Assembly (NCBI GenBank): GCA_017525225.1
Contig: JAFXTB010000155.1
Span: 1-64,000 of the forward strand
DNA length: 64,000 nucleotides
Source of the DNA: Kiritimatiellia bacterium
Lineage (GTDB): Bacteria; Verrucomicrobiota; Kiritimatiellia; RFP12; UBA1067
Direction: 5' to 3'
Made by a program: the position numbers and the translations under genes
Notes under the pieces: model-generated
What the model was told of the DNA's origin: nothing
What the model saw: the letters and a program-made list of their open reading frames with translations, nothing else
Database searches by the model: none
Shown: piece after piece, positions 4,718 through 44,593 of the stretch
Layout of the letters: each line of letters starts with the position of its first letter
Numbering within the stretch: position 1 is the stretch's first letter

Positions 4718-7700
4718 CTAACCTCGCCGCGAGTCTGAATCCGAGCGGGGTACCCGGCCCTCGAGCATTTTGAACAACGAGGCTATCTTCCTTTCCGGCG
4801 TGCTGCCGGAGAGGCGTCCAACGAAGTCCACGTCGCGCGAGCCTTCGCGATAGAACACGGCCTTGCCGTTGTGGACGTCCAGTCGCGAGATATGCGCCTG
4901 CGCGCACAGTACCCTGAGTTCGGCCAGCTTCACGAGCCGTTGCGCCGCTCGCGGCAGCCTGCCGTAGCGGTCGGCCAGCTCTCCACGCAGCTTGCGCACC
5001 GCCGCCAGGCTGGAGGTCTCCGCCAGGCGCCTGTGGAACGCCATGCGCTGCGCGTCCTCCTCCACATAGTCGTATGGCAGGCATGCTCCGGACGCCGGAT
5101 CGGCCGAACCCGGGGAGAAGTCGAGGAAATCCAGGTTTATGGTCACGTCCACCAGCATCGGTACATCCTCGCCCTTCAACCGGGCGATGGTGCGCTGCAG
5201 CAGCTGGCAGTAGAGCGAGAAGCCGATCGCGGCGATGTGCCCGGACTGCTCGCTACCCAGAAGGTTGCCCGCGCCCCGGATCTCGAGGTCGCGAAGGGCG
5301 ATGTTGAAGCCGGCGCCCAGCCCCGCATGGCGCCTGAGGGCGTTGAGGCGCTCGCGAGCATCGGAGTCCACCAACCCCTCCTCGGGCAGAAGGAAGTACG
5401 CATAGCCCTGGCGGGACGACCTGCCGACCCTGCCGCGCAGCTGGTAGAGCTCCGCCATGCCGAACCGGTCGGCGCGGTCGACGAGGATCGTGTTGGCGCG
5501 AGGGATGTCCAGACCGGACTCCACAATCGTCGTGCACAGCAGCACGTTCGTGTCGCCATGCGCGAAGCGCTGCATCTTCGCGGCGAGCTCGGCGCTCTCC
5601 ATCTGACCGTGCGCGATCTCGATGCGCGCGGAAGGCACAAGGGTGCGCAACCGTTCCGCCACGCGGCGGATGGTCATCACACGGTTGTACAGATAGTACA
5701 CCTGACCGCCGCGCGCAAGTTCGCGTTCGATGGCCTGGCGCACCGTTTCATCGCTGTCGCGTACGATCTTCGTGTCCACGGCGACACGTTCGCGCGGAGG
5801 TGTCTTCAGCACGGACAGGTCGCGCGTGCCGGTCATCGACAGGTACAGCGTGCGCGGGATGGGCGTGGCGCTCATGGTGAGCACGTCCGCCGTGGCCCTC
5901 AGTCGCTTGAGCCATTCCTTGTGCTTCACCCCGAAGCGCTGCTCCTCGTCGATCACTATGAGGCCGAGATCGTGGAATCGCACCTTCTCTGAAAGGAGCG
6001 CATGCGTGCCGATGACGATGTCCGTCGCGCCGGACAGCAGCCGGGCGCGCGTGCCCTCCCGCGCAGCGGGCGATTGGAAACGGCTCATCGCCTCTATGCG
6101 TACGGGGGTCTGCTCGAAACGCGCAAGGAACGTCTCGTAGTGTTGCTCCGCGAGCACCGTGGTCGGCGCAAGCAGCGCCACCTGCCTGCCGTTCATGGCG
6201 GCCACGAAGGCCGCGCGCATGGCGACTTCCGTCTTGCCGTATCCGGCGTCGCCGCAGATGAGCCTGTCCATCGGCTTCGTAGATGCCAGGTCGCGCTTCA
6301 CTTCCTCGATGGCGCGCGCCTGGTCGGGGGTCTCCTCCCACGGAAACGCCGCCTCGAACGCTTCGATGCCGGGCGGCGACGTGTCGTAGGCGAACCCCGG
6401 CACCACGGCACGGCGCGCCTGCGTCTCCAGGAGCGATGCCGCGAGGTCGCGCACCGCGCGCTGGGCGTCGGCCTTCTCGCGCACCCAGCGCCGGCCGTCG
6501 ATGCGGTGCAGCTTCACCTTCTCGCCCTTCACGCCAACATAGCGCGACAGCAGATGCGCATGTTCCACCGGCACGTGCAGTTTCGCTCCGCCGGCATACT
6601 CCACCGTGAACACCTCGCTGCGCGTATCGCCGACCTCCACCTCGGTGGAACCGAGGAACCGGCCTATGCCGTAGTCCACATGTACCACGAGCTCGCCCGG
6701 CTCCAGATCGAGGTTCTCCGTGAGGCGCTCGCCGGCAGGCAGGGTACGCGAACGCATGCCCGCGGTGCGTCGATGCGCGAACACGCGGTCGGAACGCGTC
6801 ACCACCGCGAGTCCCGGCACCTCGAATCCTCCTGAAAGCGCATCCAGCTCCAGCAGATGGAAGCCCTTGCGGCGGGCCGCATCGAGATGCGCCGCCAGTC
6901 GTGAACGGGCGGCATCGAGCAGTTCGGGACTCCGCACGGCCTCTGCACCCAGCTCGCTGAAGCCGGGTAGCGGCGACGTCTGGAACCTGGCCGTGGGAAC
7001 GTCGCGGGGCGGCGGATCGCCCGCATAGACCAGGCGCGCGGCACCGGCGACGCGCCGCAGCGCCTCAGGGTAGGCGTCATGCTCCAGCCACAGAACAGTG
7101 CATCCTTCCGGAAGAAGCTCCAGGAGATTCTTCATGGACCTTGCCGGGCCTTCAACGGTCACGGGGGGGATGTCCACAGCGTCGATCTTTCCCACGGATG
7201 TCTGCGTGGCAGGATCGAACACGCGCAGGGAATCAAGTTCGTCGCCGAAGAATTCCGCGCGGAACGGACGTTCGGCGCCGGGCGGCCACACGTCCAGCAC
7301 GCCGCCGCGCACCGAGAACGCGCCCGGGGCATCCACCTCCGGCATGCGGGTGTATCCGCCCGCAAGCAGCTTCCCCTGCAGCGTCCCGAACGCATTGGCT
7401 GCAGGTTCCGAGACCGAAAGGCGCATGCTCGCCGCCTCGACGGACGATGCAGACGGCACCCCCTTCTGGAGCGCGGGCGGCGATGTCGCAACCACCAGTG
7501 GATACGGGCGTATCGAATACGCCCCGAGCGCGGCTGAGACCCTGAGCCGCGCGGCCGTGGAGGAGGGATCGTCCTCCAGCATCGGCGGGAACTCCAGCAC
7601 TCGCACCATTCCAGACTTCTCGAAGACGGCGAGATCGTCGGCCAGCACATCGGCCTCCGGCAGCCCAGGCGATACCGCAAGCACGAACGGCACGCCGCGA

Positions 7701-10395: not shown

Positions 10396-12666
10396 CTACA
10401 GATCCGCAAACGGGTTGCATGTGAACCCGCTGGACACCGTCCGCCCGCCGTATTCTCCGCCCACGCGCCTCGGGCCGGCATCGCGCCGCTGCGCACAGCC
10501 GCGGGCCTCGGGTCCGCGCGGACGCGTCCTGGCCGAGAGCGACACCCGCCCGCGGTCCCTATCCACGCCTATGACGCGCACCGTTATCTTGTCGCCCGTC
10601 TTCACCACCTCGGCGGGATCGCGCACGAAGCGGTCCGCCAGCTCGGAGACATGCACCAGGCCGTCCTGGTGGATGCCGATGTCCACGAACGCGCCGAACG
10701 CCGTCACGTTCGTGACGACACCTTCGAGCGTCATGCCCTCCTGCACGTCATCGATGGTGGTGACGTCTTCGCGGAAGGCCGGTCTCTCGAACGCGGCGCG
10801 CGGATCGCGTCCCGGCTTCTTCAGCTCCTCGAGGATGTCGCGCAACGTCGGCTCGCCAACCTCGGCGGAGACATACCGCTTCACGTCTATCCTGCTCGCG
10901 AGCGTTCCGTTGCCTACAAGCTCCTTCACCGTGACGCCCAGATCGCCGGCCATCGTCTCCACGAGCGCGTACCGCTCGGGATGCACGCCGGAGGAATCAA
11001 GCGGATTGGCCGCGCCACGTATCCTCAGGAACCCTGCGGACTGCTCGAACGCCTTGGGACCCAGTCCCGCAACCTTCTTCAGCTCTCCCCTGCTCCTGAA
11101 CGCGCCGTTCTCGTTGCGCCAGGCCACGATGCGCTTCGCAAGCGCCTCGCCTATTCCCGAGACGCGCGTCAGCAGCGGGGCCGACGCCGTGTTCAGCTCC
11201 ACGCCCACCTTGTTGACGCAGCTCACCGTGACCTCGTCGAGCTTGGCGCTCAGCAGCGGCTGGAACACGTCATGCTGGTACTGCCCCACGCCTATCGCCT
11301 TCGGGTCGATCTTCACAAGTTCGGCAAGCGGATCCTGCAGGCGGCGACCGATCGATATCGCGCCACGGACCGTCAGATCGAGATCTGGGAACTCGTCTCG
11401 GGCGATCTCGCTCGCGCTGTACACCGAAGCTCCCGCCTCTGAGACCGAAACCACCACCACGTCCTTCCTGTCCAGGAGCTTCAGCGTCGCGCGCACGAAG
11501 GCTTCCGTCTCGCGGCCGGCCGTGCCGTTGCCTACGGCTATCGCCTCCGGGTTGAATCTCGCCACTAGGCGCGCAAGCGTCTCGCGCGCCTCCGTCGGCC
11601 GCTGCATCGGGTATATCACCGTGTTGTCCAGGAACTTCCCGGTGGCGTCGAGCATGGCCACCTTGCATCCGGTGCGTATGCCGGGGTCTATCGCCAGCAC
11701 GCGCTTCTCGCCGAGCGGCGAGGCGAGAAGCAGGTTGCGCAGATTCTCCGCGAACACCTCCACCGCGGCCCGGTCGCTTGCCTGCTTCTTCTCCATCGTG
11801 ACATCCAGTTCGCATGCCGGCGCCACGAGCCGCCTGTACGCATCGGCCGCGGCCTGGCGCAGCTCGTCCGCCAGCGGACTACGCGCATCAACGCCCGCCA
11901 TCTCCTCGATGCGCTCCACGAGCGGCGCGGCATCAACCACGAGGCGCATGAACAGCACCCCTTCCGCCTGCCCGCGCCTGATGGCAAGGAACCGGTGCGA
12001 CGGCATATCGGCAAGCCTTTCCTCGAAATCGTAGTACTGCTCGAACTTCGTCGGTTCGGCGGGCCTGGGGGTGACCACGGACGATTTCACCACGGACCTT
12101 GTCGCGAACGCCTGCCGAACCAGTCCGCGCACCTCGGCCATGTCGGCAAGGCGCTCGGCGCAGATGTCGCGCGCGCCGGCAAGCGCGGCGGCGGCGTCCG
12201 GCACGTCCTTAGCGGCATCCACGAACGCGGCCGCGGCGGCGTCCGGTGACTCCGCGCCCTGCGCCCAGATGATGTCCGCCAGCGGCTCCAGCCCGCGCTC
12301 CCTCGCGATCATCGCGCGCGTACGGCGCTTGGGCCGGTATGGCAGATAGAGGTCCTCGAGCGCGCTCTTCACCATGCACTTCTCTATCTTGTCACGCAGA
12401 TCGTCGGTGAGCTTGCCCTGCTCCTCAATTGATTTCAAGATCGCGGCCCTGCGCTCCTCCAGTTCTTCGTAGTAGCCCACGCGCTCCTGCACCTTCAGGA
12501 TCTGCACCTCGTCCAGATTCCCATGCACCTCCTTGCGGTAGCGCGCGATGAAGGGCACGGTGTTGCCCTCCTGCAGAAGACGCGCCACGGCGGCAACCTG
12601 CAGGACGGTCACGCCTGCCTCGCCAGCGACGCGTGCCATCGTCTCTACGTTCAAATCTTCGTTCAT
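10396..12666 (-). CDS. tex: Tex-family RNA-binding transcription accessory protein
   Basis: A 756-residue Tex protein, a nucleic-acid-binding factor conserved in most bacteria. Visible domains: the N-terminal HTH-like helical region with VPFIARYRKEVHG, the EDLYLPYRPKRRTRA segment, a YqgF/RNase-H-like domain beginning LAIDPGIRTGCKVAMLD (about residue 325), VGQYQHDVFQ, helix-hairpin-helix repeats (FRSRGELKKVAGLGPKAFEQ, about 525) and a C-terminal S1 domain (TNVTAFGAFVDIGIHQDGL, about 650). The last 40 residues after S1 are Arg/Gly-rich. It has its own promoter upstream. Confidence 0.95.
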   Translation of the reverse strand: MNEDLNVETMARVAGEAGVTVLQVAAVARLLQEGNTVPFIARYRKEVHGNLDEVQILKVQERVGYYEELEERRAAILKSIEEQGKLTDDLRDKIEKCMVKSALEDLYLPYRPKRRTRAMIARERGLEPLADIIWAQGAESPDAAAAAFVDAAKDVPDAAAALAGARDICAERLADMAEVRGLVRQAFATRSVVKSSVVTPRPAEPTKFEQYYDFEERLADMPSHRFLAIRRGQAEGVLFMRLVVDAAPLVERIEEMAGVDARSPLADELRQAAADAYRRLVAPACELDVTMEKKQASDRAAVEVFAENLRNLLLASPLGEKRVLAIDPGIRTGCKVAMLDATGKFLDNTVIYPMQRPTEARETLARLVARFNPEAIAVGNGTAGRETEAFVRATLKLLDRKDVVVVSVSEAGASVYSASEIARDEFPDLDLTVRGAISIGRRLQDPLAELVKIDPKAIGVGQYQHDVFQPLLSAKLDEVTVSCVNKVGVELNTASAPLLTRVSGIGEALAKRIVAWRNENGAFRSRGELKKVAGLGPKAFEQSAGFLRIRGAANPLDSSGVHPERYALVETMAGDLGVTVKELVGNGTLASRIDVKRYVSAEVGEPTLRDILEELKKPGRDPRAAFERPAFREDVTTIDDVQEGMTLEGVVTNVTAFGAFVDIGIHQDGLVHVSELADRFVRDPAEVVKTGDKITVRVIGVDRDRGRVSLSARTRPRGPEARGCAQRRDAGPRRVGGEYGGRTVSSGFTCNPFADL

Positions 12667-21144: not shown

Positions 21145-22215
21145 TTAGCCCCTTAGATGAAGATTGACCTTGGCCAGTTGCGCCCGAATCTCCTCTATCG
21201 ATTTTTGACCGAAGTTACGATATGCCCGCAAGTCATCTGCCGACTTATCAAGCAACTCTCCAATCATTTTGATTCCAGCATTGGCCAAACAATTGCTAGC
21301 ACGGACAGAGAGTTTTAATTCACTAACAGAAATTGAACGCACTTGTTCGGCCGTCATATCCCGCAACGCTGGATTAATCTCTTCCTCCTCGACTTCTACA
21401 TTCTTTTTGGGGCATTCCTCCGTATTTAGTCCAGCAAGAATTTTGTCTAGGAATTCCTCCCCTTCTGTCTTTTTCGGATGATTGCACGTCTCAATGTCTT
21501 TGAGCTTTTGTACGGCTGGCTCATACTTGAAATGTCTCACTAGCCACTCATATCCCATCTTCACCATCCTCATCCTCTGGCGTTCAGATATTGTCTGATC
21601 ATTTTCGACTGATTCAGTCAATCGAAAGACATACGGGACCTTCATTTTCATGAAATATCCAATAAATGCGTAAAAAACGTTTGAGTTAAAGGATGTAATA
21701 TCTTGGTGATTTCGTTTGCAAAGCCAATCCTGCAAACCGCCATATCCAAATGCTGATTTAAACTTACCTGATTCATGATGTTTATGGGTCACAAAATCCT
21801 CTGTCTCATTATAGAGCGACAAACCAATAACTCCGGCGATCGTGAGCGTATCATGCTCATTCATTTGCTCCATAGCCCACTCAACAGAGTAATACACGTC
21901 CTCATTCAGCAAAAAGTTTCGCGCGTCAGTCGGATCCAGCTTGCCGATCTGCGCATCTGGAAGCACGCACAACTCTTCAGCCATACGCTTGACCTCCGCC
22001 ATGAAATTGCGAGTCACCCTAGTCCCTTTCGGGTTCTTAACATTGACAAATATATCGGGCTGAATAAGTCTAGCCAACGTCTCCAGCACAATATAGTGAC
22101 TATTCAGTACAATTTCAAGAATCTGCTCTTCCAGTGTCATCCCCTTCGCATCAGCAGCCCTGATGTCTTCAAGGTTGAGTAAGGATTTCTCTCTTGGCAT
22201 CTGAATGTTTTCCAT
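21145..22215 (-). CDS. Protein with RNA polymerase alpha-CTD-like C-terminus
   Basis: A 356-residue protein. Residues about 290-356 read as a complete alpha C-terminal domain: SELKLSVRASNCLANAGI, IGELLDKSADDL, YRNFGQKSIEEI and LAKVNLHLRG. In RNA polymerase this domain binds UP-element DNA and activators. The first 280 residues are not recognised; they contain TLEEQILEIVLNSHYIVLE and many acidic stretches before the CTD-like part (VEVEEEEINP). Possible roles are a DNA-binding adaptor or a stand-alone mimic that recruits or poisons transcription. Base composition is clearly AT-richer than the backbone, suggesting transfer. Confidence 0.6.
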   Translation of the reverse strand: MENIQMPREKSLLNLEDIRAADAKGMTLEEQILEIVLNSHYIVLETLARLIQPDIFVNVKNPKGTRVTRNFMAEVKRMAEELCVLPDAQIGKLDPTDARNFLLNEDVYYSVEWAMEQMNEHDTLTIAGVIGLSLYNETEDFVTHKHHESGKFKSAFGYGGLQDWLCKRNHQDITSFNSNVFYAFIGYFMKMKVPYVFRLTESVENDQTISERQRMRMVKMGYEWLVRHFKYEPAVQKLKDIETCNHPKKTEGEEFLDKILAGLNTEECPKKNVEVEEEEINPALRDMTAEQVRSISVSELKLSVRASNCLANAGIKMIGELLDKSADDLRAYRNFGQKSIEEIRAQLAKVNLHLRG

Positions 22216-22242: not shown

Positions 22243-23055
22243 TCAAAGCGCTCTTACCGAGAAATTACCAAACGCTTTATTAACTACGGCGGCGAGCGCT
22301 TCAGCGTATTTCTTAATTCCGGCGCTGCGTATTTCAACGCCTTCCTCCGAGTGCATGTCGCCTTTACATGGCAGGCAGATCGAACAGCATGGTAAATCGT
22401 ATTCGTCATACTCCCATGACTCGTCAGGTTCACCGTCCACAACAATGCATGGATCACGGTCAATGTCGGCGACTGTATTTTTAAGTGTTCCCGCCATCTT
22501 CTGCTGATGCGCTTCGTCATCTTCAGGAAGCACATTCTCGATGGTGAACGCCTTTTCATCCGTCCATCCCTCTTCCGTCACATCGGTTGCCACGACATAT
22601 TCCACGTAAATGCCTCTGTCCCTGAGCGCCTCGACAACTTCATCCGCCCCGCCGAACCCATCTTCGGCCTCCTCGTCACCAGTGAACGCCACCATGACAT
22701 TGTCGCTAAACGCGTTCTCCTTCATGCAGGCGACAATCACCGCATTCGTGATGAGATTGTCGAAGGAGCCTTTCCACAATTCGCCGTCGCACTTTACGTA
22801 GCACTGTTCGGCCACCATGTCAACGTGGGACGAAACAACGACGACTGGTTGCTCCGGATCAAAATTACTCGGCGCATAGATTTTCGCAAGATCGCCATCA
22901 TGATAAAGTTTCCAACCACTCTCTTTCAGACACTCAGCGATGGCATCAACCCGCGCCGTGTTTGTAAACTTCTCTCCATCATCCTCACCGCGCACGGCGA
23001 TTCGTTCAAGGATGGGACGGACTACTTCTTCTCCTTTACACCACATCGTCATCAA
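22243..23055 (-). CDS. M20/M42-like zinc peptidase-like protein
   Basis: A 270-residue protein with the ligand pattern of co-catalytic zinc peptidases: SSHVDMV (His-x-Asp, about residue 75), GSFDNLITNAV (bridging Asp), FTGDEEAEDGFGG (Glu pair), ATDVTEEG (Asp) and GDMHSEEG (His). All five ligands are present although the protein is shorter than usual and lacks an obvious dimerisation domain. The substrate may be a small peptide or amide. The first 20 bases overlap the end of the transposase gene, so transcription may continue from it. A second member is at 34198-34968. Confidence 0.65.
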   Translation of the reverse strand: MMTMWCKGEEVVRPILERIAVRGEDDGEKFTNTARVDAIAECLKESGWKLYHDGDLAKIYAPSNFDPEQPVVVVSSHVDMVAEQCYVKCDGELWKGSFDNLITNAVIVACMKENAFSDNVMVAFTGDEEAEDGFGGADEVVEALRDRGIYVEYVVATDVTEEGWTDEKAFTIENVLPEDDEAHQQKMAGTLKNTVADIDRDPCIVVDGEPDESWEYDEYDLPCCSICLPCKGDMHSEEGVEIRSAGIKKYAEALAAVVNKAFGNFSVRAL

Positions 23056-24130
23056 TCCTTACGATTCCAACCGCCAAAACCGGCTTAGTCAAGCCATCCA
23101 CAATGACATCACCCATCAGATGGCAACGGTCATAGAGTTCTGCCCTTGTCGGTTCGCGCGTCATGGCGGGCCAGAGCGAAAGGAAGAGCATTCGGCCTTC
23201 CGCGCAGAAGCGCTCGTACTGGCGGCCGGGATGCCACCGCTCGCCGAAGCCCTCGGGCGAGAGTACCACCCACCTCCCGCCGGCCAGACCCAAGGCATGG
23301 CCGCACGCCTTTTCACATGGGCTCATGAAGGTACCGACGCCAGCCCCACCAGGGCCAATACGCCGCGCTCGTGCGACAGCCGCGTTCCACTCCTTACCAC
23401 CCTCGGTAAGCTTGCGCGAATAGCGCATCGGCTCCAGGATCGGTGACTTTAAGATATCGATGTTGCCATAGCCATACCACTTCCGCCCGAGAAACGACAC
23501 TTCATTGACGCGCTGGAAAAACTCACGGTGGCTTTGGCGCCGCCAGCTTCGCTCGGGATTCTCGCGGATATACCGCGTAAAGGCCGCGAGCTGCCCATCG
23601 GCCTTTACGATCCAATCATGCCAATCAAAGGCGAAGAGGTGTTGCCCGCCAGAGCGGGCAACGGCACCACGCCTACCGCCCGCGCTAGCCTGCAACTTTT
23701 CTGAGCTTGCTTCGCCCTTCACGCCAGTAGGCGATCCCGCCGCGCTAGTCGCGCCGCCATCTGCGCAGGTAGGCGTCTCGCTCGCGCTTGCTCTGGCAAG
23801 CGCGAAATACCCCTTCTCCAACTTTCTCATCAGCATTCTCACAATTACCGCCAAGCTCACTCGCTTCTCGATATCGCGAATCTTGATGAGTAGGTGAATA
23901 TGATCAGGCATGATGGAGAAACATCGAATCGGCTCGATGCAATACCAGGTTTCGTGGAATGTCATGATGATATCGACGAATAGCCGCGTAATCCTGTTCC
24001 CTTCAAGGTAGTGGCTCGCCGTACCGCCACAGACGCGCGAAAGCGCAGGGTAACCATCGTTGCGCCTGATCGTTACCATATAGAAATATGGCAATGAATA
24101 ATCAAACCCTGGCAAGCGGCGGCCCATCAT
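23036..24130 (-). CDS. REP-associated tyrosine transposase (RAYT, Y1 HUH)
   Basis: A 364-residue single-strand nuclease of the TnpA_REP / Y1 family. The start MMGRRLPGFDYSLPYFYMVT and the HUH motif (MPDHIHLLI, about residue 72) are typical, and RYIRENP near residue 190 is the usual Tyr helix region. Two things are odd. Residues about 109-163 are a low-complexity Ala/Ser/Gly insert encoded by palindromic REP-like DNA (23641-23804). A further 140 residues follow the normal end of the domain and are unrecognised. Such enzymes mobilise or maintain REP palindromes in their host. Confidence 0.85.
   Translation of the reverse strand: MMGRRLPGFDYSLPYFYMVTIRRNDGYPALSRVCGGTASHYLEGNRITRLFVDIIMTFHETWYCIEPIRCFSIMPDHIHLLIKIRDIEKRVSLAVIVRMLMRKLEKGYFALARASASETPTCADGGATSAAGSPTGVKGEASSEKLQASAGGRRGAVARSGGQHLFAFDWHDWIVKADGQLAAFTRYIRENPERSWRRQSHREFFQRVNEVSFLGRKWYGYGNIDILKSPILEPMRYSRKLTEGGKEWNAAVARARRIGPGGAGVGTFMSPCEKACGHALGLAGGRWVVLSPEGFGERWHPGRQYERFCAEGRMLFLSLWPAMTREPTRAELYDRCHLMGDVIVDGLTKPVLAVGIVRIDDDVV
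23641..23672 (-). repeat. REP-like palindrome inside the RAYT gene, unit A
   Basis: Read on the minus strand: GTAGGCG, seven bases, a 9-base arm (GTTGCCCGC), loop TCTG and the exact complementary arm (23641-23662 on +). A GTAG box 5' of a hairpin is the signature that TnpA_REP proteins recognise. Confidence 0.75.
23726..23752 (+). repeat. Degenerate REP-like unit inside the RAYT gene
   Basis: GTAGGCG (23726-23732), seven bases, then a weak CGCG-based stem around TAGT. It looks like a decayed copy of the two flanking units. Confidence 0.4.
23769..23804 (+). repeat. REP-like palindrome inside the RAYT gene, unit B
   Basis: Plus strand: GTAGGCG, seven bases, arm CGCGCTTGC (23783-23791), loop TCTG, arm GCAAGCGCG (23796-23804). 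It has the same box, spacing and loop as unit A but the opposite orientation, so the two form a BIME-like pair. Confidence 0.75.
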
Positions 24131-24138
24131 TCAACACC

Positions 24139-24279
24139 TTAGTTGCCAAGGTTCGGGTTCGCCACCGCGACCTTCAGAAACTCGAACGGCCCCTTCGCCT
24201 TCCGCTCTCGCGTCAGTTCACCAACTAACTCCGCAGCAAGATTCTCAATACGGGCATTCTCTATGACTTGTAACGACAT
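24139..24279 (-). pseudogene. RecC-like N-terminal stub
   Basis: A 46-codon frame with an excellent ribosome binding site (GAGGAGGATGT before ATG 24279). Its translation (SLQVIENARIENLAAELVGE ... PFEFLKVAVANPNLGN) resembles the extreme N-terminus of exodeoxyribonuclease V gamma chain (RecC), where such a start is followed by about 1000 more residues. Here a stop comes at once and the RAYT gene begins nine bases later, so this is probably the remnant left by an insertion or deletion. It is immediately downstream of the DUF262 gene (11-base gap). Confidence 0.5.
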
Positions 24280-24290
24280 ACATCCTCCTC

Positions 24291-26462
24291 TCAAGCCGGA
24301 TCGTTATTTGGATTCACACCCAAAACGCGTCTGAATGCTGAATCCAAAAGGCCCAACATATCGTTGCCATGGATCGCGCAAACTTCTTTCCAACCAACTT
24401 CATTCGCCGGGGTAAGCTCAGCCATTAGACGCAACTTCAAACTCCCCCCAAACACAGTTTCTCTATATTGAATCTTCTTCGCACTTGGCTTTAGATTTGA
24501 AAACTTAGAATTCTCGCTTGGCTGAACAACACACAAATTTCCAAACTGATCAACAGCCCGTCTTCCCTGCCCATCTGGATCTATCCATACGAGTTGCTGA
24601 TTCTGTTGACAACCCTCTGGATGCTGCGGATACCAATGCTCAACAGAATTACGATATGCAAATACAAAGGGCTCCCAAGTCCCTTCAGCTCCTTGAGACT
24701 TGAACTTCTTCTTCTCTTTTGCATCCCTCCATAGCAGGAAGTCTAGATAATTAAAGATAATATGAGGCGTAGAAGTGCCTTCGCGCAAATTTTCTTTCGT
24801 TAATTCGGCAACGTATCCTTTTGTCTCTACGCATGCATACCTCTCCGCCTCATTAACAAGATCCACAAAAGAGACAACGCCATCCACATGGACTCTGTAC
24901 AGCCAATCCAACAATCTAGTCACCCAATGCATACCTTTGAATTCTGTGTATGTAACCCTTAGGCACGATTGTAACATCAGAATCTCTTCACGCGAATTGC
25001 TCTTTACGTTTTCTTCACCATCACACCAATCGGAAGCCACATAGTATGCTGTGCGCTTCTTCCCGCTCTCGTCAACACTTTGCCGTAGTTGTTTCAAACT
25101 CCAGTCTCCATCAACCGCATCACGTTCATAGTCACGTTTAACTATGTATTTGTCAAACAGGCATCTACATGTCAGGAGGCATTTTGCAAAATCCCATGCT
25201 ATATTTCCATTTTTCTCATTGTCTCCGCCATCCTTCTTGAACAAATCCTCAAAACGCCGAATCATCTTCGAAACATCAAGTTCACTTCTGTCAAGATCAC
25301 CTTGATTGTTTTTATGGTTAAACACCTTCAACACATTCAGTAGGAAATGGGGGAAGTATATTACACTTCTAAATCGCACAGGGTCCCCCCTGCCCTCTAA
25401 TTCATCCGATCCATCATCGAGTACCTGTTCTTCATTCGATTCATCCTTCACCTTTCCCATCAGAAGAGACTCACAAATCGAACACTTTACATCGCATACG
25501 CCCTCACCATTCGCACCAACATCAATCTGAGGCATTGCGGACCAATCTTTCCCGAAAATCTCGTCACGAACGCCAGATGAGAAATGCATTTGCACATACC
25601 CGTTCATGTCGCTACAAGCATTCCAAATTTGTGCAAATCGTTTTCGCTTATTAACGTCGGTAAGCTGTCGCATTAACATAGCTTTGACAATATCCTCTGG
25701 GTCTAATTGCTCACCACGTGTGTTCATCACCTCAAAATATCTATTCAAGTCAGTTGTGTCTGGGACCCTGACAAGATATAGTCGGACCTTCGACAACCCC
25801 TTTAGCATCCGATTTTTATATTCATCACCACGGGCCCGAAGGTGGCGCAATATTGAAACTACACCATTACACATGCTATTTTCAAGTGCCACACCTTTCT
25901 CGTTTGCCTTTTCTTTAATCAACCAATCCCCTTCCTTGACCTGTGCGTCAAGCTCCGCGAGCTGCTTAGTCGCCCTCTGCACACAATTCTCTTGCGTGTC
26001 CGCCTTACACACAAAAGCTTTAGCGAACTTTATTATTTCCTTTATATGCATTACTGTTCGTCGCGACCGAACCCGTTGTGCATAATCCAACGGATTTTTC
26101 GACTTGATCTCAACCCCAAGACAATTCAGCAATATGAAGAGTGCCGTCAGGCGTTGCTGTCCATCAATGACCTCACACCAAAGATGGCTATCTTTCTCTG
26201 TGGCCTTAACAACAACCGAGCCTATATAATATTCATTCGTGCCATTTTCGTCAGAAATAGCGGCATCGTGAATGTCATCCATCAGGCAGATCAGCTCATT
26301 CTCATTGACCTCATGCGGAGGTGTACCCCACGCGAATGCGCGTTGATATAGAGGCACCTTAAATGTACAGCATGGGAACAAGTCAAACAGTGATACCTCG
26401 TCCTGAAGTACAGGGGCTTGAACAACCGATGACTTCGTCAGATCTTCTTTATAGTCAACCAT
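24291..26462 (-). CDS. DUF262/DUF1524 (GmrSD-like) protein
   Basis: A 723-residue protein with an N-terminal DUF262 ParB-like domain (VPLYQRAFAW about residue 36, YIGSVVV, VIDGQQRLTAL about 102) and a C-terminal DUF1524-like HNH nuclease segment (SVEHWYPQHP about 610, FGNLCVVQPSENSKFSNLK about 640). This is the architecture of type IV GmrSD restriction enzymes, where DUF262 hydrolyses NTP and the HNH part cuts modified DNA. The start at 26462 is set by GAGGAGG seven bases upstream; it overlaps nothing and follows the larger DUF262 fusion by 11 bases. AT-rich composition marks it as acquired. Confidence 0.85.
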   Translation of the reverse strand: MVDYKEDLTKSSVVQAPVLQDEVSLFDLFPCCTFKVPLYQRAFAWGTPPHEVNENELICLMDDIHDAAISDENGTNEYYIGSVVVKATEKDSHLWCEVIDGQQRLTALFILLNCLGVEIKSKNPLDYAQRVRSRRTVMHIKEIIKFAKAFVCKADTQENCVQRATKQLAELDAQVKEGDWLIKEKANEKGVALENSMCNGVVSILRHLRARGDEYKNRMLKGLSKVRLYLVRVPDTTDLNRYFEVMNTRGEQLDPEDIVKAMLMRQLTDVNKRKRFAQIWNACSDMNGYVQMHFSSGVRDEIFGKDWSAMPQIDVGANGEGVCDVKCSICESLLMGKVKDESNEEQVLDDGSDELEGRGDPVRFRSVIYFPHFLLNVLKVFNHKNNQGDLDRSELDVSKMIRRFEDLFKKDGGDNEKNGNIAWDFAKCLLTCRCLFDKYIVKRDYERDAVDGDWSLKQLRQSVDESGKKRTAYYVASDWCDGEENVKSNSREEILMLQSCLRVTYTEFKGMHWVTRLLDWLYRVHVDGVVSFVDLVNEAERYACVETKGYVAELTKENLREGTSTPHIIFNYLDFLLWRDAKEKKKFKSQGAEGTWEPFVFAYRNSVEHWYPQHPEGCQQNQQLVWIDPDGQGRRAVDQFGNLCVVQPSENSKFSNLKPSAKKIQYRETVFGGSLKLRLMAELTPANEVGWKEVCAIHGNDMLGLLDSAFRRVLGVNPNNDPA

Positions 26463-26473
26463 TTTAATCCTCC

Positions 26474-29400
26474 TCAAAGAGCGTTAACAAGTTCCCAAAG
26501 AGACTTCCTATCGTCCGTCTTCTGCTTCTCTTTTGCAGACTTCGACATTTCAACAGCCATCTTCGCAATGTCCGTATGGAACACCGCATTCCTGATAGCG
26601 AAAAACATTGCGATCCTATTCGTGTAGTTACTGCTTCCGTCAACAACACCCAGGGCGTACTTGTTTGGTGTCTTAGGACTAAAATACTCAAGGTCTAGCC
26701 TCGCTGAATATACCCATTTGCACAATGTTTTAATTGCAGCATTGACATCTTCTTCGAGAGGAAGTCCCAATCCAAAACGATCGAAATACGCCAAGAGAAC
26801 CGACTCGAACAGCGCCTTAATATATACATTGTTGCTCCTATTCTCAAGTATCGGCTTTACCCCAGGACAACTCTCAGCTTTTTCTCGAACCTTCTTCAAC
26901 AAGACCTGATAATGCGAAACCATGTCGAAGAACTCCTTCCCAGGAGCAAACTCTGTTCCTATACGAAATTTTCCTACGGCAGCAAAAGCATTGTCAACAT
27001 ACCCATATTTACCCCTCCACCGCTGAGGGACGCCCTTAAAAGCCTTTAGGTCTTTAGTTGTAAAGCCATAGCATCTTTCTTTACCCGACCATTTCAAGAT
27101 TGGATACAAGAGTTTGTCAAACAAATAACTTAGATCCTGAACATCGAAATTCTCCCATTGTATCACAACCAGCAGACGCGGATCCTTTGTTTCATGCCCA
27201 ACATTTTCATAGCAATCAGGATTAAGACGGATGTCTTCATCTAGCTCCCGCAAATGATACGCCTTCAGTAGATCATGCGGCTCAAGTCGTCTTCCTTTGA
27301 TATTCTGTGAATCAAACAACTGAAACGCATAATCGCGTTCGGTCACACACACAGCAACGACTTGCAGCGAATTAGTAAAGGCTTCTTTGAATTTCGCCTG
27401 GCAATCGTCACCATGGATTTTTAAATAATCCATAATATGGCACAGATTATTGTTGAGATTTCTTCTCGAGTCCGGCATTTGAATAAGCGCAGGATAAAAC
27501 TCCGGTCTTTTCAAAAGGTCACACTCTATTCCTAAGGCAAGCGCCAACAATAAAAATGTCAAAGTACGTTGCTGACCATCGACAATATTGTAAACGCATA
27601 TTCCATCAGCGCTCTTTTCTTTGTGCAGGATAATCGAACCCATCCGATATGGTATGTCGCTCCAGTCATTTTCTTGCGGCTTTTTATCAATCACCATTCG
27701 TTTGATGTCATCCATGAACTCCCAGACATTATCCCTCTCCCATTTGTATGGACGCTGATACTCAGGAATACGCAGATTCATCTTAAACAATTGTGGTATA
27801 GTTATAACCATCGCATTTTTATCCCCAAGGACATCCAGGGTCTCGCCCATAGTCAGCTGATTCTTGAGTGTTTTCAGTTTCTCCCTTATTCCTATGTCCA
27901 GCGTCAGGAACTTCTCTTCTTCTACAACCTTACGCACACTTGGCAACTTGTCTTTGTCGCCGACCTTGTCTCCTTGATGATCTTCTTTTGTTTTTGAGGC
28001 AAGCAGTCCATCATCATTTAATATAACTTCCCGAACATGCATACCTCTTTGATTGAGTCTTAATTTTAATTCCGCAAATTGTCGTATCTCTTCCAAATTT
28101 TCAAACCCGAATTCTTTACACACTTTCTCCCGCTCCACCTTTGTCCTTCTGCTATTGGCGGTAGACGCCCCAAATCCAACAGCAACCAAAGCTGGGTTAT
28201 CATACCCACCTACAGGCCATTCCCAATCAGGCATTAAACTATCACGATCTACATCACAAGGTTTCTTCAACCCATTCTTAGTGGGCATCCACTTGCTATC
28301 CTTCAACTGAATAACAAAGCTTGAATCAGAAATCCTGCCTTCTGCACCACGATTGGGTTTATAAAATGCGGATAACTGTTCTCTCGTCGCGGATATCAGC
28401 ACCTGCCAGACCAGCCGTCCGACACGTTGAAGTTTCGCCGGATCATTTTGTAGCTCACTCAGTTTTTGTATTATCTGCCCTAAGATGTCTATCTTAAAAT
28501 CTTTTTCTTCCTTAGTAGCCTTCATGACATTGCCAGGCGCTCCTCGTAGATAATCCGCCTTAACATGTTCTGATACAGAATCAACACAGGTGATTTGCAA
28601 CTCCAGCATAATGCCGAGTGCCTTAGCAAATTCACGAAGCGTCGTTAACTGTCTATCCCCTAAAATGCCACTATAGACATCCGACAACGAGAATCTGTTA
28701 ACTGTTGCAAGCACATTAGAAACTAGATTCAGTCCAGAATCAATATACGGCGAATCAAGAAAAATCTCGGAAAGCCTAACCCATCTCTTATCACAACAAA
28801 TCACAGGGAAACACCGACATTCACTTGCGTATATCCTGTTAGCCGCCAATAAATCAAGCATTGAACTAAAGTACAACTCATTCTCTTCTATTGTTGCATC
28901 ATTAATTTCTCCGGTTCCTGCCCAGAAATTCTTTATGTAATACTTTAGATTGGAAACCTCATCATATACATCAACATTGAGCTTCTTGAAAAATTCCTTC
29001 AAGGTTTCTCCGTCCGGACAATCATTGATATATTTATCGAAGTCCTCGTGAATAGCCACGGCATCAATCAACTTTACATCAGAACAACATCTAACTAATC
29101 TCTTGCCACAATTTGCAGCAACCAACTCACCTGTTTGCAACCTAATGAAAGGGACCTTTAAGATGCCATCCTTAAACTCTTCATGCAGCCATGCTGCGTA
29201 TTCTTTCCTTGCATATATAAAGAGCTGTATCAACTCGGCATTAGCCTTCCCAGCAAACAACTGCGCGCAATCATGTCTTTCTTGACACTCCCCAACCAAG
29301 GTCTCAATATTAAACTCTTCAATCCCTATATCATCGAAAAACCTGTACGCATTGGAATTCTTTTGTGAAGGATTTTTAGCCCATGCGATATTCGTGTTCT

Positions 29401-30658
29401 TTTTTATTATCTTCAAGTCAGCGTCCGATATGATCTTCTGCATTATTTGGCCGCCGCGACATGCTTCAGAGGCTCTGGCAAAGCCTCCTTGCCTGATTGG
29501 AATTAGACTTTCATTCTTAAATGAATTCAAAACCTCTCTTCTGATAACTTCATACTTTTCCGCAATTCCATCTCTTGAATTCGGCAACACATCGAAGAAA
29601 TCTGTGCTTAATAATCCTGACTGCTTAATGATTTCAAGGCTTTTCTGTTGAAGCGCCGCAATAGCCTCCATCAATTTACGATTTTCTGCTGTGTCTCGAA
29701 TTTCACTACGGCTTACCGTTGGCGCAAATGATGCATGAATCGAATACCGTAACCCCGAATTCTCACCAGTAGCTGGGAAATGAATATAAACACTTGCATC
29801 TGGATCTGAAACAATCCGCTGAGTTATTTTCCTCTCGCCGTCCTCTGATACATTTTCTTCGTCAGCTATTCGATAAGCTAATCCAATTGGAATATTCCGC
29901 TGCTTTATTTCACCATTGTCTTCCACCTGCATTGTAACATCGTCGTCGAAACGAAGATACTTTGTCTCGGAAATCTTTTGACTGGTAAGCGCATGTTTAC
30001 TCACTATTATCGAATTGTTCTGGGGCTGAGGCTTTTTGAAAACAAATCCTCCAGCCGGCATTTGGACGCGAACCTCCTCTATATGTCTTAAGAAAACAAA
30101 CGACCTAGCACTTAAGTCATTGAGCTCATTCGTGATTTCATTAACGGCTTGAACACTACTTTTGCGAACATGGTCAAACGGCAGCACAAAGATTGTCGTA
30201 AAGCCCGGCAGAACTCCTATTCTCTGCACTTCATCATCTTCCAAAATTTCTGGCACCACCAGATTCTTTACCTTGAAGTGCCATTCGCCGGAAATAATTT
30301 TTGGAGTGTTTGTATAAGCATAGACAGATTTGAATCCAATTCCAAATTTTCCTATTCGGGTGTCTTCATCACGCTCATTCACTTTAGTACTACACGCAAC
30401 TCTTGATATAGCACTCACATCAGCAAAATTAAAAGCCCTTCCGTCATGCCGGAAAACCAACTGATCTTGTGTCAGAACAAACTCAACCGTTCGTGCTCCC
30501 TGGTCCTCCGCATTCTGCAACAACTCGTAGATAAAATGCGCGTCCTGAGGGTAGACTTCAATCAGCAACCGCCTAAGAGCCTCAAGTACACTCTTAGACA
30601 TTTCGTTTTCATACCAGTGCTTACTATCCTCTGCAAGCTTCTTGAATTGCTCATTCAT
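26474..30658 (-). CDS. Sacsin/HSP90-like ATPase fused to DUF262
   Basis: A 1394-residue fusion. The N-terminus is a GHKL ATPase of the sacsin type: FIYELLQNAEDQGA (N box, about residue 43), FRHDGRAFNFADV, and GKFGIGFKSVYAYT (about 106). A long alpha/beta middle region follows without recognisable motifs. From about residue 960 there is a full DUF262 domain: LRIPEYQRPYKW, YRMGSIILHKE and NIVDGQQRTLTFLLLALAL (about 1030), with YAFQLFDSQNIKGRRLEPHD after it. The HNH tail is absent. This combines a conformational ATPase with the NTPase/ParB-like module of GmrSD; with the next gene carrying DUF262 plus HNH, the two could form one nuclease complex. The family role in defence is known for DUF262; the fusion's function is inference. 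Confidence 0.8.
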   Translation of the reverse strand: MNEQFKKLAEDSKHWYENEMSKSVLEALRRLLIEVYPQDAHFIYELLQNAEDQGARTVEFVLTQDQLVFRHDGRAFNFADVSAISRVACSTKVNERDEDTRIGKFGIGFKSVYAYTNTPKIISGEWHFKVKNLVVPEILEDDEVQRIGVLPGFTTIFVLPFDHVRKSSVQAVNEITNELNDLSARSFVFLRHIEEVRVQMPAGGFVFKKPQPQNNSIIVSKHALTSQKISETKYLRFDDDVTMQVEDNGEIKQRNIPIGLAYRIADEENVSEDGERKITQRIVSDPDASVYIHFPATGENSGLRYSIHASFAPTVSRSEIRDTAENRKLMEAIAALQQKSLEIIKQSGLLSTDFFDVLPNSRDGIAEKYEVIRREVLNSFKNESLIPIRQGGFARASEACRGGQIMQKIISDADLKIIKKNTNIAWAKNPSQKNSNAYRFFDDIGIEEFNIETLVGECQERHDCAQLFAGKANAELIQLFIYARKEYAAWLHEEFKDGILKVPFIRLQTGELVAANCGKRLVRCCSDVKLIDAVAIHEDFDKYINDCPDGETLKEFFKKLNVDVYDEVSNLKYYIKNFWAGTGEINDATIEENELYFSSMLDLLAANRIYASECRCFPVICCDKRWVRLSEIFLDSPYIDSGLNLVSNVLATVNRFSLSDVYSGILGDRQLTTLREFAKALGIMLELQITCVDSVSEHVKADYLRGAPGNVMKATKEEKDFKIDILGQIIQKLSELQNDPAKLQRVGRLVWQVLISATREQLSAFYKPNRGAEGRISDSSFVIQLKDSKWMPTKNGLKKPCDVDRDSLMPDWEWPVGGYDNPALVAVGFGASTANSRRTKVEREKVCKEFGFENLEEIRQFAELKLRLNQRGMHVREVILNDDGLLASKTKEDHQGDKVGDKDKLPSVRKVVEEEKFLTLDIGIREKLKTLKNQLTMGETLDVLGDKNAMVITIPQLFKMNLRIPEYQRPYKWERDNVWEFMDDIKRMVIDKKPQENDWSDIPYRMGSIILHKEKSADGICVYNIVDGQQRTLTFLLLALALGIECDLLKRPEFYPALIQMPDSRRNLNNNLCHIMDYLKIHGDDCQAKFKEAFTNSLQVVAVCVTERDYAFQLFDSQNIKGRRLEPHDLLKAYHLRELDEDIRLNPDCYENVGHETKDPRLLVVIQWENFDVQDLSYLFDKLLYPILKWSGKERCYGFTTKDLKAFKGVPQRWRGKYGYVDNAFAAVGKFRIGTEFAPGKEFFDMVSHYQVLLKKVREKAESCPGVKPILENRSNNVYIKALFESVLLAYFDRFGLGLPLEEDVNAAIKTLCKWVYSARLDLEYFSPKTPNKYALGVVDGSSNYTNRIAMFFAIRNAVFHTDIAKMAVEMSKSAKEKQKTDDRKSLWELVNAL

Positions 30659-30704
30659 GCGAATCTCTCCTTGTTAGTTCATGGCATGTCATTCAAACGG
30701 GAGC

Positions 30705-31139
30705 TCAATGCGAAGCCAACCACTCGCAAGCACCTGCCCATTTTTGACGCGCATTGTCTAATAGCTCTTCTGGAATACCTTCACCGTTCTCCAGGGACGA
30801 CCAGAAATCCTGGAGCTTCCCGAATGCCGCCTGAAAAACCCCATTCCCTCCATTTGATCCCTGAGCAGCTGTGAACGCAGCTGTCCTCATTAATATACGG
30901 ATGATATCAGAGACTTGCTCGCCGCCCCTGTATAAATACAAATTGTAGGAAGGCAATTCGGCCTCATGCATCCGGCTCACATACTCTTCGGTCAGATGCA
31001 AGGCGTATTTACGATGATTTCGAGGATCCAACCGTTTTTTATCTCCGCCTGGGACCTTGGGCATGTCAAGCCAGGCAAGGAAATACACAGCAACATCTTG
31101 CCAGTTTTCCGCATTCATAACATCATCCAGCATTATCAT
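30705..31139 (-). CDS. Hypothetical 144-residue protein of the DUF262 cluster
   Basis: Not recognised. The start at 31139 is chosen for GGAGGAACTGCG just before ATG; a longer frame to 31202 would overlap the preceding gene. It is helical, with LPSYNLYLYRGGEQVSDIIR and a C-terminal segment FQAAFGKLQDFWSSLENGE. It lies between the 319-residue protein and the ATPase-DUF262 fusion with gaps of about 45 bases, so it is probably a conserved accessory subunit. Confidence 0.65.
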   Translation of the reverse strand: MIMLDDVMNAENWQDVAVYFLAWLDMPKVPGGDKKRLDPRNHRKYALHLTEEYVSRMHEAELPSYNLYLYRGGEQVSDIIRILMRTAAFTAAQGSNGGNGVFQAAFGKLQDFWSSLENGEGIPEELLDNARQKWAGACEWLASH

Positions 31140-31182
31140 CGCAGTTCCTCCATTCAGATTCTTCCGAGTTGCTATTAATTCA

Positions 31183-32142
31183 TCAACCTGCCGATGGTAC
31201 AACTATGAAATGGCCATGTCCACGCAAAAGGCGAGGTATGCTGATCCTGAAGTCGCCAGGCATATTGCGTGAAAAATCAATGATGATAGACCGACACCCT
31301 TTTCCCAAAAGTTTCTCAACAGGGATCCATGGGCGATCATAATCAGTGGCAACATAATAGGCGTATCGATAGGGGGCGCCTTCTTCACCGCATTTGTAGA
31401 GGCGAAAATCATCATCATCCGGTAGCCCGAACATCTCATCCAGCCCAGAATGTTCAGGATCGCCGTATCCTTCACCAATGATAACTAGCCCATCGGCAGT
31501 AAAGGAATCAAGGCCAATCTCGCCCTTTCGACAGACATAAACCAACACATGGCGTTGGGAATGTCCCTTCCCGCCTTTAGACTTAGGAGGTTTTGATGCG
31601 CCAGAATCTTCGGCAACAGCCGGAAAGTCACGATTCCCCGCATTTCCACCAGGGACAATGATTCTCCTAATATCGCTTTCCTCTATCTCCTTCAATTCCT
31701 GAGGAATAGTAAAATTCCGAGGTTCAATCTGAATATTCATTTCTCTAAGATCGTAATTCAACCATCCAAAAAGAACAATGCAATAATCCCCAATCTCCCC
31801 ATGTGTGTAATACTGCTGATTATTATGCGTAAACGGATGCTCAAGAATGAACCTCGCTCGAGTATCGTCCGGCGCTCTTGAACCTTGAGCCTTTTGCTCA
31901 ATCTCTTCGTGCGTACTTAGCAATCGTCTACCAGACCAGTAATATCTTGTATTCGGACGTTCGTTGCGAAAGCTATTGAATATCGCTTCAGGCACCCCCT
32001 TTTCAAACGCAGTATCAAGTACTTTAAGGAGTGTATCTTTATAGTTCCCATTGTCCAATTGTACATTGTTATCAACAATCACTCTGAACTTACGATTGCC
32101 GTTTTGAGGATTAAACCTCTTGAAGTCATTAAGCCTTGCCAT
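31183..32142 (-). CDS. Hypothetical 319-residue protein, first gene of the DUF262 cluster
   Basis: Not recognised. It is soluble and mixed alpha/beta, with a Gly/Lys/Ser-rich linker (KPPKSKGGKGHSQRH, about residue 190) separating an N-terminal half (HPFTHNNQQYYTHGEIGDYC) from a C-terminal half containing FTADGLVIIGEGYGDPE. It heads the four-gene run 32142 to 24291 and is as AT-rich as its neighbours. Sensor or specificity roles are possible but unsupported. Confidence 0.65.
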   Translation of the reverse strand: MARLNDFKRFNPQNGNRKFRVIVDNNVQLDNGNYKDTLLKVLDTAFEKGVPEAIFNSFRNERPNTRYYWSGRRLLSTHEEIEQKAQGSRAPDDTRARFILEHPFTHNNQQYYTHGEIGDYCIVLFGWLNYDLREMNIQIEPRNFTIPQELKEIEESDIRRIIVPGGNAGNRDFPAVAEDSGASKPPKSKGGKGHSQRHVLVYVCRKGEIGLDSFTADGLVIIGEGYGDPEHSGLDEMFGLPDDDDFRLYKCGEEGAPYRYAYYVATDYDRPWIPVEKLLGKGCRSIIIDFSRNMPGDFRISIPRLLRGHGHFIVVPSAG

Positions 32143-32159
32143 TTTATTCTCTTTTTCTT

Positions 32160-32225
32160 TTAATTTTCGTCACAAACAAACGTCATCTTCCCGCCGACAC
32201 GGTCGACGACGATTCCGTCATACAG
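32160..32225 (-). pseudogene. Relic of a retropepsin-like gene, C-terminal end
   Basis: The short minus frame ending at 32160 translates to LYDGIVVDRVGGKMTFVCDEN, closely matching the last residues of the intact aspartyl-protease-like gene at 43126 (LVVDRVGGKLTFVKN). The rest of the gene is gone and the frame runs out into the NUDIX gene. It shows that DNA has been lost or exchanged here. Confidence 0.55.
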
Positions 32226-36278: not shown

Positions 36279-36363
36279 TGGTGCCCCGAGGGGGAGTCGG
36301 ACCCCCACGCCTTTCGGCCCGTGGATTTTGAGTCCAGGTCGTCTGCCATTCCGACACCGGGGC
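36279..36363 (-). tRNA. tRNA-Leu(CAA)-like gene, copy 1
   Basis: An 85-base gene with encoded CCA, a 7-bp acceptor stem (GCCCCGG with TCGGGGC), a D-arm with G18G19, anticodon loop CTCAAAA giving anticodon CAA, a class II variable arm (GCC-GAAA-GGC) and a 5-bp T stem. Departures from consensus: C at position 26, a C-C mismatch at 27-43, and C instead of U at position 55 (T-loop TCCGACT). It may be a functional minor tRNA as in phages, or a tRNA mimic or decoy. Confidence 0.85.
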
Positions 36364-41201: not shown

Positions 41202-41286
41202 TGGTGCCCCGAGGGGGAGTCGGACCCCCACGCCTTTCGGCCCGTGGATTTTGAGTCCAGGTCGTCTGCCATTCCGACACCGGGGC
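41202..41286 (-). tRNA. tRNA-Leu(CAA)-like gene, copy 2
   Basis: Identical to the gene at 36279-36363, including C26, the C27-C43 mismatch and C55. Its 3' end lies 164 bases before the GP88 start. Confidence 0.85.
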
Positions 41287-43125: not shown

Positions 43126-43725
43126 TCAGTTTTTCACGAATGTCAGCTTTCCGCCGACGCGGTCGACGACGAGGGTGAAGTTGGCGAAGAAGTCGTAGCC
43201 GATCACGCCCTCTGGAGGAACGTACTCGGGATTGTCCTTTACGTCACCACAAAGGATCTCGAACGGATATCCCATGAACTCGCATGGCAAACGCCGCACA
43301 GGCACAGTCCATGGCTCGCCGGAGAATCCGCAATCTTCAACAACGTCGACGATCGGGAAATGCGGCGGCTGGTCCAGATAGTTGACATACGAGTACGCTG
43401 CACCCGTGTCGATATAGCGCCTTGTATGAATTCCGCGGACATCCATTTTGACAACCCAGCCCGAATCGCGAACCTCGAGACGAACGTCCGTGCCGCCTTC
43501 GAGCGGAATAGGTTCGTCCGAGGTGATGATCTCGTTGTTCGGATAGTCGAACTTCGTGTACCGCTTCAGCGATCCGACGCCAGCGACGTGAAGACCGGGA
43601 ATCCCGAAGAGTTCCTGAACGCCTGGAAGGACTGGTTCAATCGCGCGGGGAAACCCCGTGTCCATAAAACAGGTCTTTCCGTCTATCTCAACGACCGGCA
43701 CCCTCTTGATCAATTTGAATTGCAT
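43126..43725 (-). CDS. Retropepsin-like aspartyl protease
   Basis: A 199-residue protein with two Asp-Thr-Gly motifs (CFMDTGFP about residue 20; YIDTGAAYSYV about 100) and the C-terminal hydrophobic Gly motif (GVIGYDFFANF about 180), as in duplicated pepsin-like or retropepsin-like folds. It would be unusual for a bacterium to keep both lobes in 200 residues. The start at 43725 follows AGGAGATTATGTA. A broken relative's tail is at 32160. The target is unknown. Confidence 0.7.
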   Translation of the reverse strand: MQFKLIKRVPVVEIDGKTCFMDTGFPRAIEPVLPGVQELFGIPGLHVAGVGSLKRYTKFDYPNNEIITSDEPIPLEGGTDVRLEVRDSGWVVKMDVRGIHTRRYIDTGAAYSYVNYLDQPPHFPIVDVVEDCGFSGEPWTVPVRRLPCEFMGYPFEILCGDVKDNPEYVPPEGVIGYDFFANFTLVVDRVGGKLTFVKN

Positions 43726-43795
43726 TACATAATCTCCTAGGCAGGATCTTCGTTCCAGGCCAGCGCGCGAAAAAGCCATAACTTTCCCACCACCA

Positions 43796-44593
43796 TCACC
43801 CAATATAGTTTCGACACTCATAAAGAGCGTCGCGAATAGTCATGTCCCGCTCTTTGACCATCTTAAGACATTGTTCCGCCACAGTATGCGGATAGGTGCT
43901 ACATGTTTCTCTTACCAAAGACAACGCCTTGTCCGGATCAACCGCGACACCAATGCCGATGGCATATAGTACGGCCAGTCGGACTTTTGCATACGGATAC
44001 CCTTGATCGGCCGCCTTCTTCGTATACTCAAACAACTTGTCCAGCACTTCGGAGTGTTGTTCGCCAGCATCCCAATCGAACACATCGCGGTTTTCGCGGT
44101 AGATGGCATCACTCAAGGCATCTGCAGCGTCCGTGTTCCTCAATCTCGCCGACCTCTCATACCAGACCACAGCCTTGTCCGGATCAGGCTTGAACAACTC
44201 GCCGTAATCGAACATCGCATAATGATTCAATTCGGCCAGTTCAAGCGCCGCCATGGCGGCGGCCGCCCTCTCGTCTGGATCGTTGAAGTTCGAGCCATTT
44301 GCATAGGCTCTCTCCCAATATGCTATTGCAGCAAGAAGTCCATCTCCAAACAAGTCGTCCCCTCGCCATTCAAAGCAGAGACGGCCATACTGATATTGAG
44401 AGATCACATTTCCGCGTTGCGCCGAATGCCTGAGCCATTCAAGACCGGCCTGAAAAGACTGGTCGCCATACGGATAATCGGCCAGGTCGCCTGCACATTT
44501 TATCATCGCAAGCCGATGTTGTGCCTCGCCGTCGCCCGACCTCGCGGTATTCTCCAACCTCTCAAGATCGCTCTCGTTCTGCGCTACATTCAT
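43796..44593 (-). CDS. Sel1-repeat protein
   Basis: A 265-residue protein made of Sel1-like helical repeats: ARSGDGEAQHRLAMI, WLRHSAQRGNVISQYQYG, IAYWERAYANGS, YTKKAADQGYPYAKVRLAVL. These form protein-binding superhelices. No signal peptide, so cytosolic. Its start overlaps the stop of the 334-residue gene by ATGA; the partner is probably that protein. Confidence 0.8.
   Translation of the reverse strand: MNVAQNESDLERLENTARSGDGEAQHRLAMIKCAGDLADYPYGDQSFQAGLEWLRHSAQRGNVISQYQYGRLCFEWRGDDLFGDGLLAAIAYWERAYANGSNFNDPDERAAAAMAALELAELNHYAMFDYGELFKPDPDKAVVWYERSARLRNTDAADALSDAIYRENRDVFDWDAGEQHSEVLDKLFEYTKKAADQGYPYAKVRLAVLYAIGIGVAVDPDKALSLVRETCSTYPHTVAEQCLKMVKERDMTIRDALYECRNYIG

Follow-up and report, generated by a model that had tools for sequence, protein, structure and literature searches.

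Positions 24291-32142 of the window (the 64,000-nt stretch of Kiritimatiellia DNA analyzed here) encode a sacsin-like GHKL ATPase fused to a DUF262 protein, beside a DUF262-HNH protein. This raises two questions: (i) whether the cluster is a type of system not yet described and (ii) what the fused ATPase may do. The list of open reading frames in the window bears out the four genes and the order proposed in a first-pass annotation, all co-directional on the minus strand; we refer to them as A to D. Gene A (31183..32142) encodes 319 aa. Gene B (30705..31139) encodes 144 aa from an ATG with GGAGG ahead of it; its longest open reading frame, from a TTG start, would give 165 aa. Gene C (26474..30658) encodes 1394 aa, and gene D (24291..26462) encodes 723 aa if translation starts at the ATG at 26462, or 728 aa with the TTG at 26477 as start codon. 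The intergenic gaps (~43 nt for A-B, ~46 nt for B-C, and ~11 nt for C-D) are operon-like. GC content is 41-47% over 24-32 kb and 57-69% in most of the flanking DNA. The low-GC stretch starts near 21 kb of the window. Positions 21145-22215 encode a low-GC 356-aa protein that has an RNA polymerase alpha CTD domain at its C-terminus and is not RpoA itself.

Pfam confirmed the domain calls of the first-pass annotation, a GHKL ATPase-DUF262 fusion and a DUF262-DUF1524 protein. In C, matches were obtained to SACS (residues 32-125, 1e-16), GmrSD_N/DUF262 (957-1135, 6e-25), and DUF7834 (1164-1381, 1.5e-32), and in D to GmrSD_N (39-268, 2e-24) and GmrSD_C/DUF1524 (577-696, 2e-8). DUF4263 had no Pfam match in either protein. 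Motif searches recovered the hallmarks of the GmrSD family: the DUF262 motifs YQR, DGQQR, and FxxxN are present in C and D alike, and the DUF1524 domain of D retains the HNH residues H614, N647, and N656, the two asparagines spaced by 9 residues as are N521 and N530 of GrwA (PMC12137116). The GHKL motifs of C are also complete (N-box ELLQNAED, HDG, and G-box GKFGIGF). With PADLOC, one of the checks that had been proposed, residues 5-803 of C match positions 7-804 of the 1302-position TmtA profile (2e-59), so that the match stops well short of the profile's full length, and A and B have no match. The name TmtA presumably stands for Tiamat. Gene C combines a TmtA-like GHKL/sacsin portion (~1-870) with a TgvA-like DUF262-DUF7834 portion (~945-1390), and D resembles the TgvB/GrwA nuclease subunit.

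The two halves of C have separate histories. Residues 930-1394 align with standalone proteins of 426-505 aa, relative to which C carries ~930 extra N-terminal residues with the GHKL domain. Wherever a comparison of the next gene downstream was possible, the standalone homologue is followed directly by a homologue of D. One such pair type occurs on hundreds of Klebsiella plasmids, an estimate based on the match to the C half and on two inspected records. The earlier view that a split into DUF262 and DUF262-HNH subunits is undescribed does not hold: TgvAB (PMC11411939) and GrwAB (PMC12137116) are two-protein precedents, and many plasmids and genomes carry adjacent standalone homologues of the C-terminal half of C and of D. 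Two adjacent DUF262 genes, one with DUF1524, are seen in the window, in a second genome described below, and in the standalone homologous pairs. The split system, then, is already known, and the GHKL/sacsin fusion appears to be new.

The GHKL half of C aligns at 25-38% identity with GHKL/sacsin proteins, typically of 1030-1100 aa, whose aligned examples have an HNH-like domain at their C-terminus. Genes for these relatives are mostly directly behind a gene of ~1030 or ~1190 aa, and a profile search with one such partner identified it as an SNF2-type, DrmD-like helicase. The helicase-type gene followed by the GHKL/sacsin-HNH-like gene, often with a 4-nt overlap (L012-L014, L017, and L115-L194), looks like a two-gene module; it is widespread in bacteria and also occurs on an archaeal plasmid. 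DUF262 was found at none of the best 80 GHKL loci from 84,980 genomes, and no match in the plasmid or phage records covered 80% of C.

A scan of 162 genomes of the order revealed a second fusion, in a genome of another genus of the same family (G429), and no further one was found in 388 genomes sampled across the phylum, making two in total. Text searches of the open-access literature, of incomplete coverage, returned no description of the fusion or of genes A and B. In G429 the order A-B-C-D is preserved, with a 1404-aa fusion followed by a 685-aa homologue of D. A frameshift or assembly chimera is an unlikely source of the fusion in C, given its recurrence with the same neighbors. Protein identity between the two genomes is 27% for the GHKL half, 46% for the DUF262 half of C, and 42% for D. 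Tree inference places the DUF262 halves of both C proteins as sisters (support 100/99), and likewise the D proteins (90/90), whereas the GHKL halves fall in different clades. A sister relation of the GHKL halves was rejected (p-AU 7e-9, 48-row tree); this tree has long branches, about which the tool warned, and the likelihood gap is large. Given sister DUF262 parts and non-sister GHKL parts, the GHKL half was either attached twice or swapped. The presence of GHKL ATPases of differing ancestry on the same kind of partner suggests that they are swappable control modules. The next nearest DUF262 pairs (G396 and G444) carry a different N-terminal extension, of ~180 aa. By eye, similar M20-peptidase-like genes flank the cluster (window 22243-23055) and the G396 pair (L201:10396-11214). 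A small protein starting with MIKIIQGDITTLAVDAIVNAANE, macro-domain-like by eye, is encoded in three genomes immediately ahead of DUF262 genes (L235:3809-4351, L237:3082-3717, and L240:4765-5358).

Genes A and B have a different recent history. Their proteins are 99% and 94% identical, respectively, between the window and G429, and the DNA is 98% identical over 30705-32212. Over most of A there is a single mismatch in ~900 nt; mismatches rise toward the B end, identity drops sharply after B, and no such identity is found within C. For the flanking Nudix gene, DNA identity is only 80%. Since A-B are nearly identical across genera while C and D are far more diverged, A-B have moved recently between genera. 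This is much better evidence for transfer than the adjoining transposase cited in the first-pass annotation, although the claim of horizontal transfer itself stands. The transposase-like gene (23036-24130, minus strand) has only a weak match to REP-associated (RAYT-type) transposases, its GC content of 58% is host-like, and the genome contains several relatives of it at other sites; we reject it as a sign of mobility and place it outside the system.

Neither A nor B matched Pfam, NCBIfam, or PHROGs profiles, and the plasmid searches and virus-contig scans made with them gave no match either. For A, the PDB yielded a single insignificant match. AF2 modeling of A (pLDDT 32) and B (pLDDT 51) gave structures of too low quality to support a fold search; B is predicted, with low confidence, to be mostly helical. 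We found A in only the two near-identical copies. A weak hit in another genome (G435, E 0.007) was attributed to chance, as it covers just 83 residues, contains an in-frame stop, and lies in an inconsistent context. The first-pass annotation had made its proposal depend on the small genes recurring with the cluster, and both accompany the fusion pair again in G429. A third genome, G477, has a B homologue (45% identity, 3e-28) ahead of a tandem DUF262 pair of another type, lying 27 bp upstream of genes for a 698-aa protein with GmrSD_C and then a 939-aa protein, without GHKL. Further upstream is a gene for an SRA-domain protein (5e-17), the kind that reads modified bases. All three B genes therefore stand ahead of a DUF262 pair, but two of them are near-identical and not independent, and DUF262 itself is frequent among genomes of the family (61 of 115), so the linkage is suggestive rather than conclusive. 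We read B as a probable accessory common to other tandem DUF262 systems and A as a more restricted one; both could also be hitch-hikers. The motif R43-x4-H48 is invariant across the three B homologues. An RNase role of the HEPN type was considered for B and is unsupported, there being no HEPN match in Pfam. The motif sits in an early helix, unlike that of typical HEPN proteins.

The ends of the cluster indicate how the locus may have been reshaped. In G429 a Nudix gene comes first, then a ~200-aa gene carrying a pair of DTG motifs, genes A to D, a RecC-like gene, and a RecB-like gene (the last assigned by eye). The window locus keeps only the last codons of the aspartic-protease-like DTG gene (32165..32212, minus strand), a gene that G429 has at full length ahead of A. 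Of the RecC-like gene it keeps roughly 50 codons at the start (24141..24290, minus strand), where DNA identity with G429 is 88% over 24141-24322. Because only these ends remain, the window locus is a shortened version, and with such neighbors lost or truncated the window copy may be partly decayed. Across several loci, the ~200-aa double-DTG gene, which has no Pfam match, is followed by restriction genes within ~15-25 nt, and decayed 3' ends of it precede more restriction genes at the same loci (SRA, the B-DUF262 pair, DUF262, and LlaJI). Copies or remnants are at L200:15478-16068; L219:12898-13542 and 11934-12048; L221:7883-8527 and 5612-5660; L224:499-1077, where a disrupted copy precedes AAA-LlaJI genes; and window 32165-32212 and 43126-43821. 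The DTG gene seems to mark a point at which restriction cassettes insert or recombine. Several genomes of the family have RecBC/AddAB-like helicase-nuclease genes next to restriction genes of the DUF262 or LlaJI kind (L200:1387-7650, L224:6900-9000, L230:9745-15940, and the truncated RecC start after D in the window). Two tRNA-Leu(CAA) genes lie ~5 kb apart on the same strand of the window (36279-36363 and 41202-41286), and their sequence has a 34-nt match close to the G429 locus as well.

Potentially addressing the role of the fused ATPase, we consider it fairly probable that the cluster is a GmrSD-family (type IV-like) restriction system resembling TgvAB and GrwAB, with a nuclease gated by the GHKL ATPase and B as an accessory. 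This reading is based on the architecture, the gene linkage, the intact motifs, the recurrence of the cluster, and the separate ancestry of the two GHKL halves. The nuclease subunit would be D, with a DUF262 sensor/NTPase and an HNH domain, and the C-terminal half of C would be its DUF262 partner in a TgvAB/GrwAB-like complex. The DUF262 sensors, or an accessory, may detect foreign and probably modified DNA, as family membership suggests for C-D. ATP-dependent dimerizing clamps are characteristic of HSP90/MORC/MutL-type ATPases. Most likely, the GHKL module of C likewise dimerizes and clamps on ATP binding, and this clamp would gate or license D to cut DNA, with a presumed anti-phage effect. 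More tentatively, tandem DUF262 pairs may be a chassis with pluggable N-terminal modules (GHKL of different origins or the ~180-aa domain) and accessories such as A and B. In that event C-D with B, and possibly A, would be a distinct multi-subunit defense type that depends on an HSP90-like ATPase cycle to license its separate HNH nuclease.

The fusion could instead be accidental: the GHKL half, left over from a GHKL-HNH system, would be mostly passive or in decay on an ordinary TgvAB-like pair that works without it. Standalone pairs strongly predominate, the searches turned up two fusions only, and TgvAB works in Vibrio cholerae without GHKL (PMC11411939). However, both fusions are single open frames with complete GHKL motifs, and GHKL halves of different ancestry on sister TgvA-like halves point to selection for a GHKL partner, which makes a passive remnant unlikely. 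Less likely still is abortive infection, in which a Tiamat-like GHKL sensor would unleash the C-D nuclease on the host chromosome or RNA, perhaps with B as an RNase-like toxin or antitoxin. The Tiamat profile match of C and the predicted helical nature of B with its invariant R-x4-H would fit such a scheme. Against it, TgvAB hits phage directly with no growth arrest, and GrwAB cultures give no typical abortive response (PMC11411939, PMC12137116). The lack of a HEPN match and an unusable model also weaken the case for B as an RNase.

A further possibility, somewhat doubtful but the strongest of the three alternatives, is that A-B have a separate function, for example as a mobile or regulatory pair, and that C-D alone provide defense; this is compatible with gating of D by the GHKL module of C. 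The near-identity of A-B between genomes whose C and D proteins share 27-46% identity, its abrupt end after B, and the confinement of A to two genomes would be expected of such a pair. Against it, a diverged B recurs ahead of a different DUF262 pair, and the spacing in the window is operon-like.

The cluster offers a Tiamat-like ATPase naturally fused, with two different GHKL ancestries, to a subunit of a probable restriction system with known partners, providing a concrete and testable hypothesis that GHKL acts as a nuclease gate. The mechanism of Tiamat is given as unknown in recent surveys (PMC10482375, PMC12926258). The cluster also presents the tandem DUF262 pair as a modular platform, with B as an additional, uncharacterized small partner.

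Among known systems, we likened C-D to TgvAB and GrwAB by described layout and motifs, direct sequence comparison being with homologous pairs such as those of the Klebsiella plasmids. In both systems anti-phage activity needs both genes and is abolished by DUF262 or HNH mutations (PMC11411939, PMC12137116). TgvAB, a GmrSD-like system of V. cholerae VPI-2, resembles the C-terminal half of C plus D: both proteins have DUF262, the DUF262 gene comes first, and TgvB also has DUF1524. In contrast to the cluster, TgvA has no described GHKL domain, there is no A or B, and TgvAB lies inside a type I RM operon (PMC11411939). GrwAB of V. cholerae WASA VSP-II acts on phages with hypermodified DNA and likewise pairs two cooperating DUF262 proteins, one with DUF1524, with a shared motif set. 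Its gene order is reversed, as in the G477 pair, GrwB has other C-terminal domains, and GHKL is undescribed in either protein (PMC12137116). The DUF262 partner of this subgroup stands alone, and C departs from this by its extra N-terminal module.

Tiamat shares with C its GHKL/sacsin-type N-terminal ~800 residues, but C continues as a DUF262-DUF7834 half and is linked to other genes. The helicase and GHKL-HNH pairs likewise have a homologous GHKL half, but they end in an HNH-like domain behind a helicase-type gene and have no DUF262. VcSduA, a type I-D Shedu protein with an N-terminal GHKL ATPase, is like C in placing GHKL ahead of a defense nuclease as its proposed controller (PMC12137116). 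Its DUF4263 PD-(D/E)XK effector is in the same chain, whereas the nuclease of the cluster is a separate HNH protein. Overall, the cluster appears to be a horizontally acquired, shortened-locus relative of known two-protein systems, in which the GHKL fusion is the new part.
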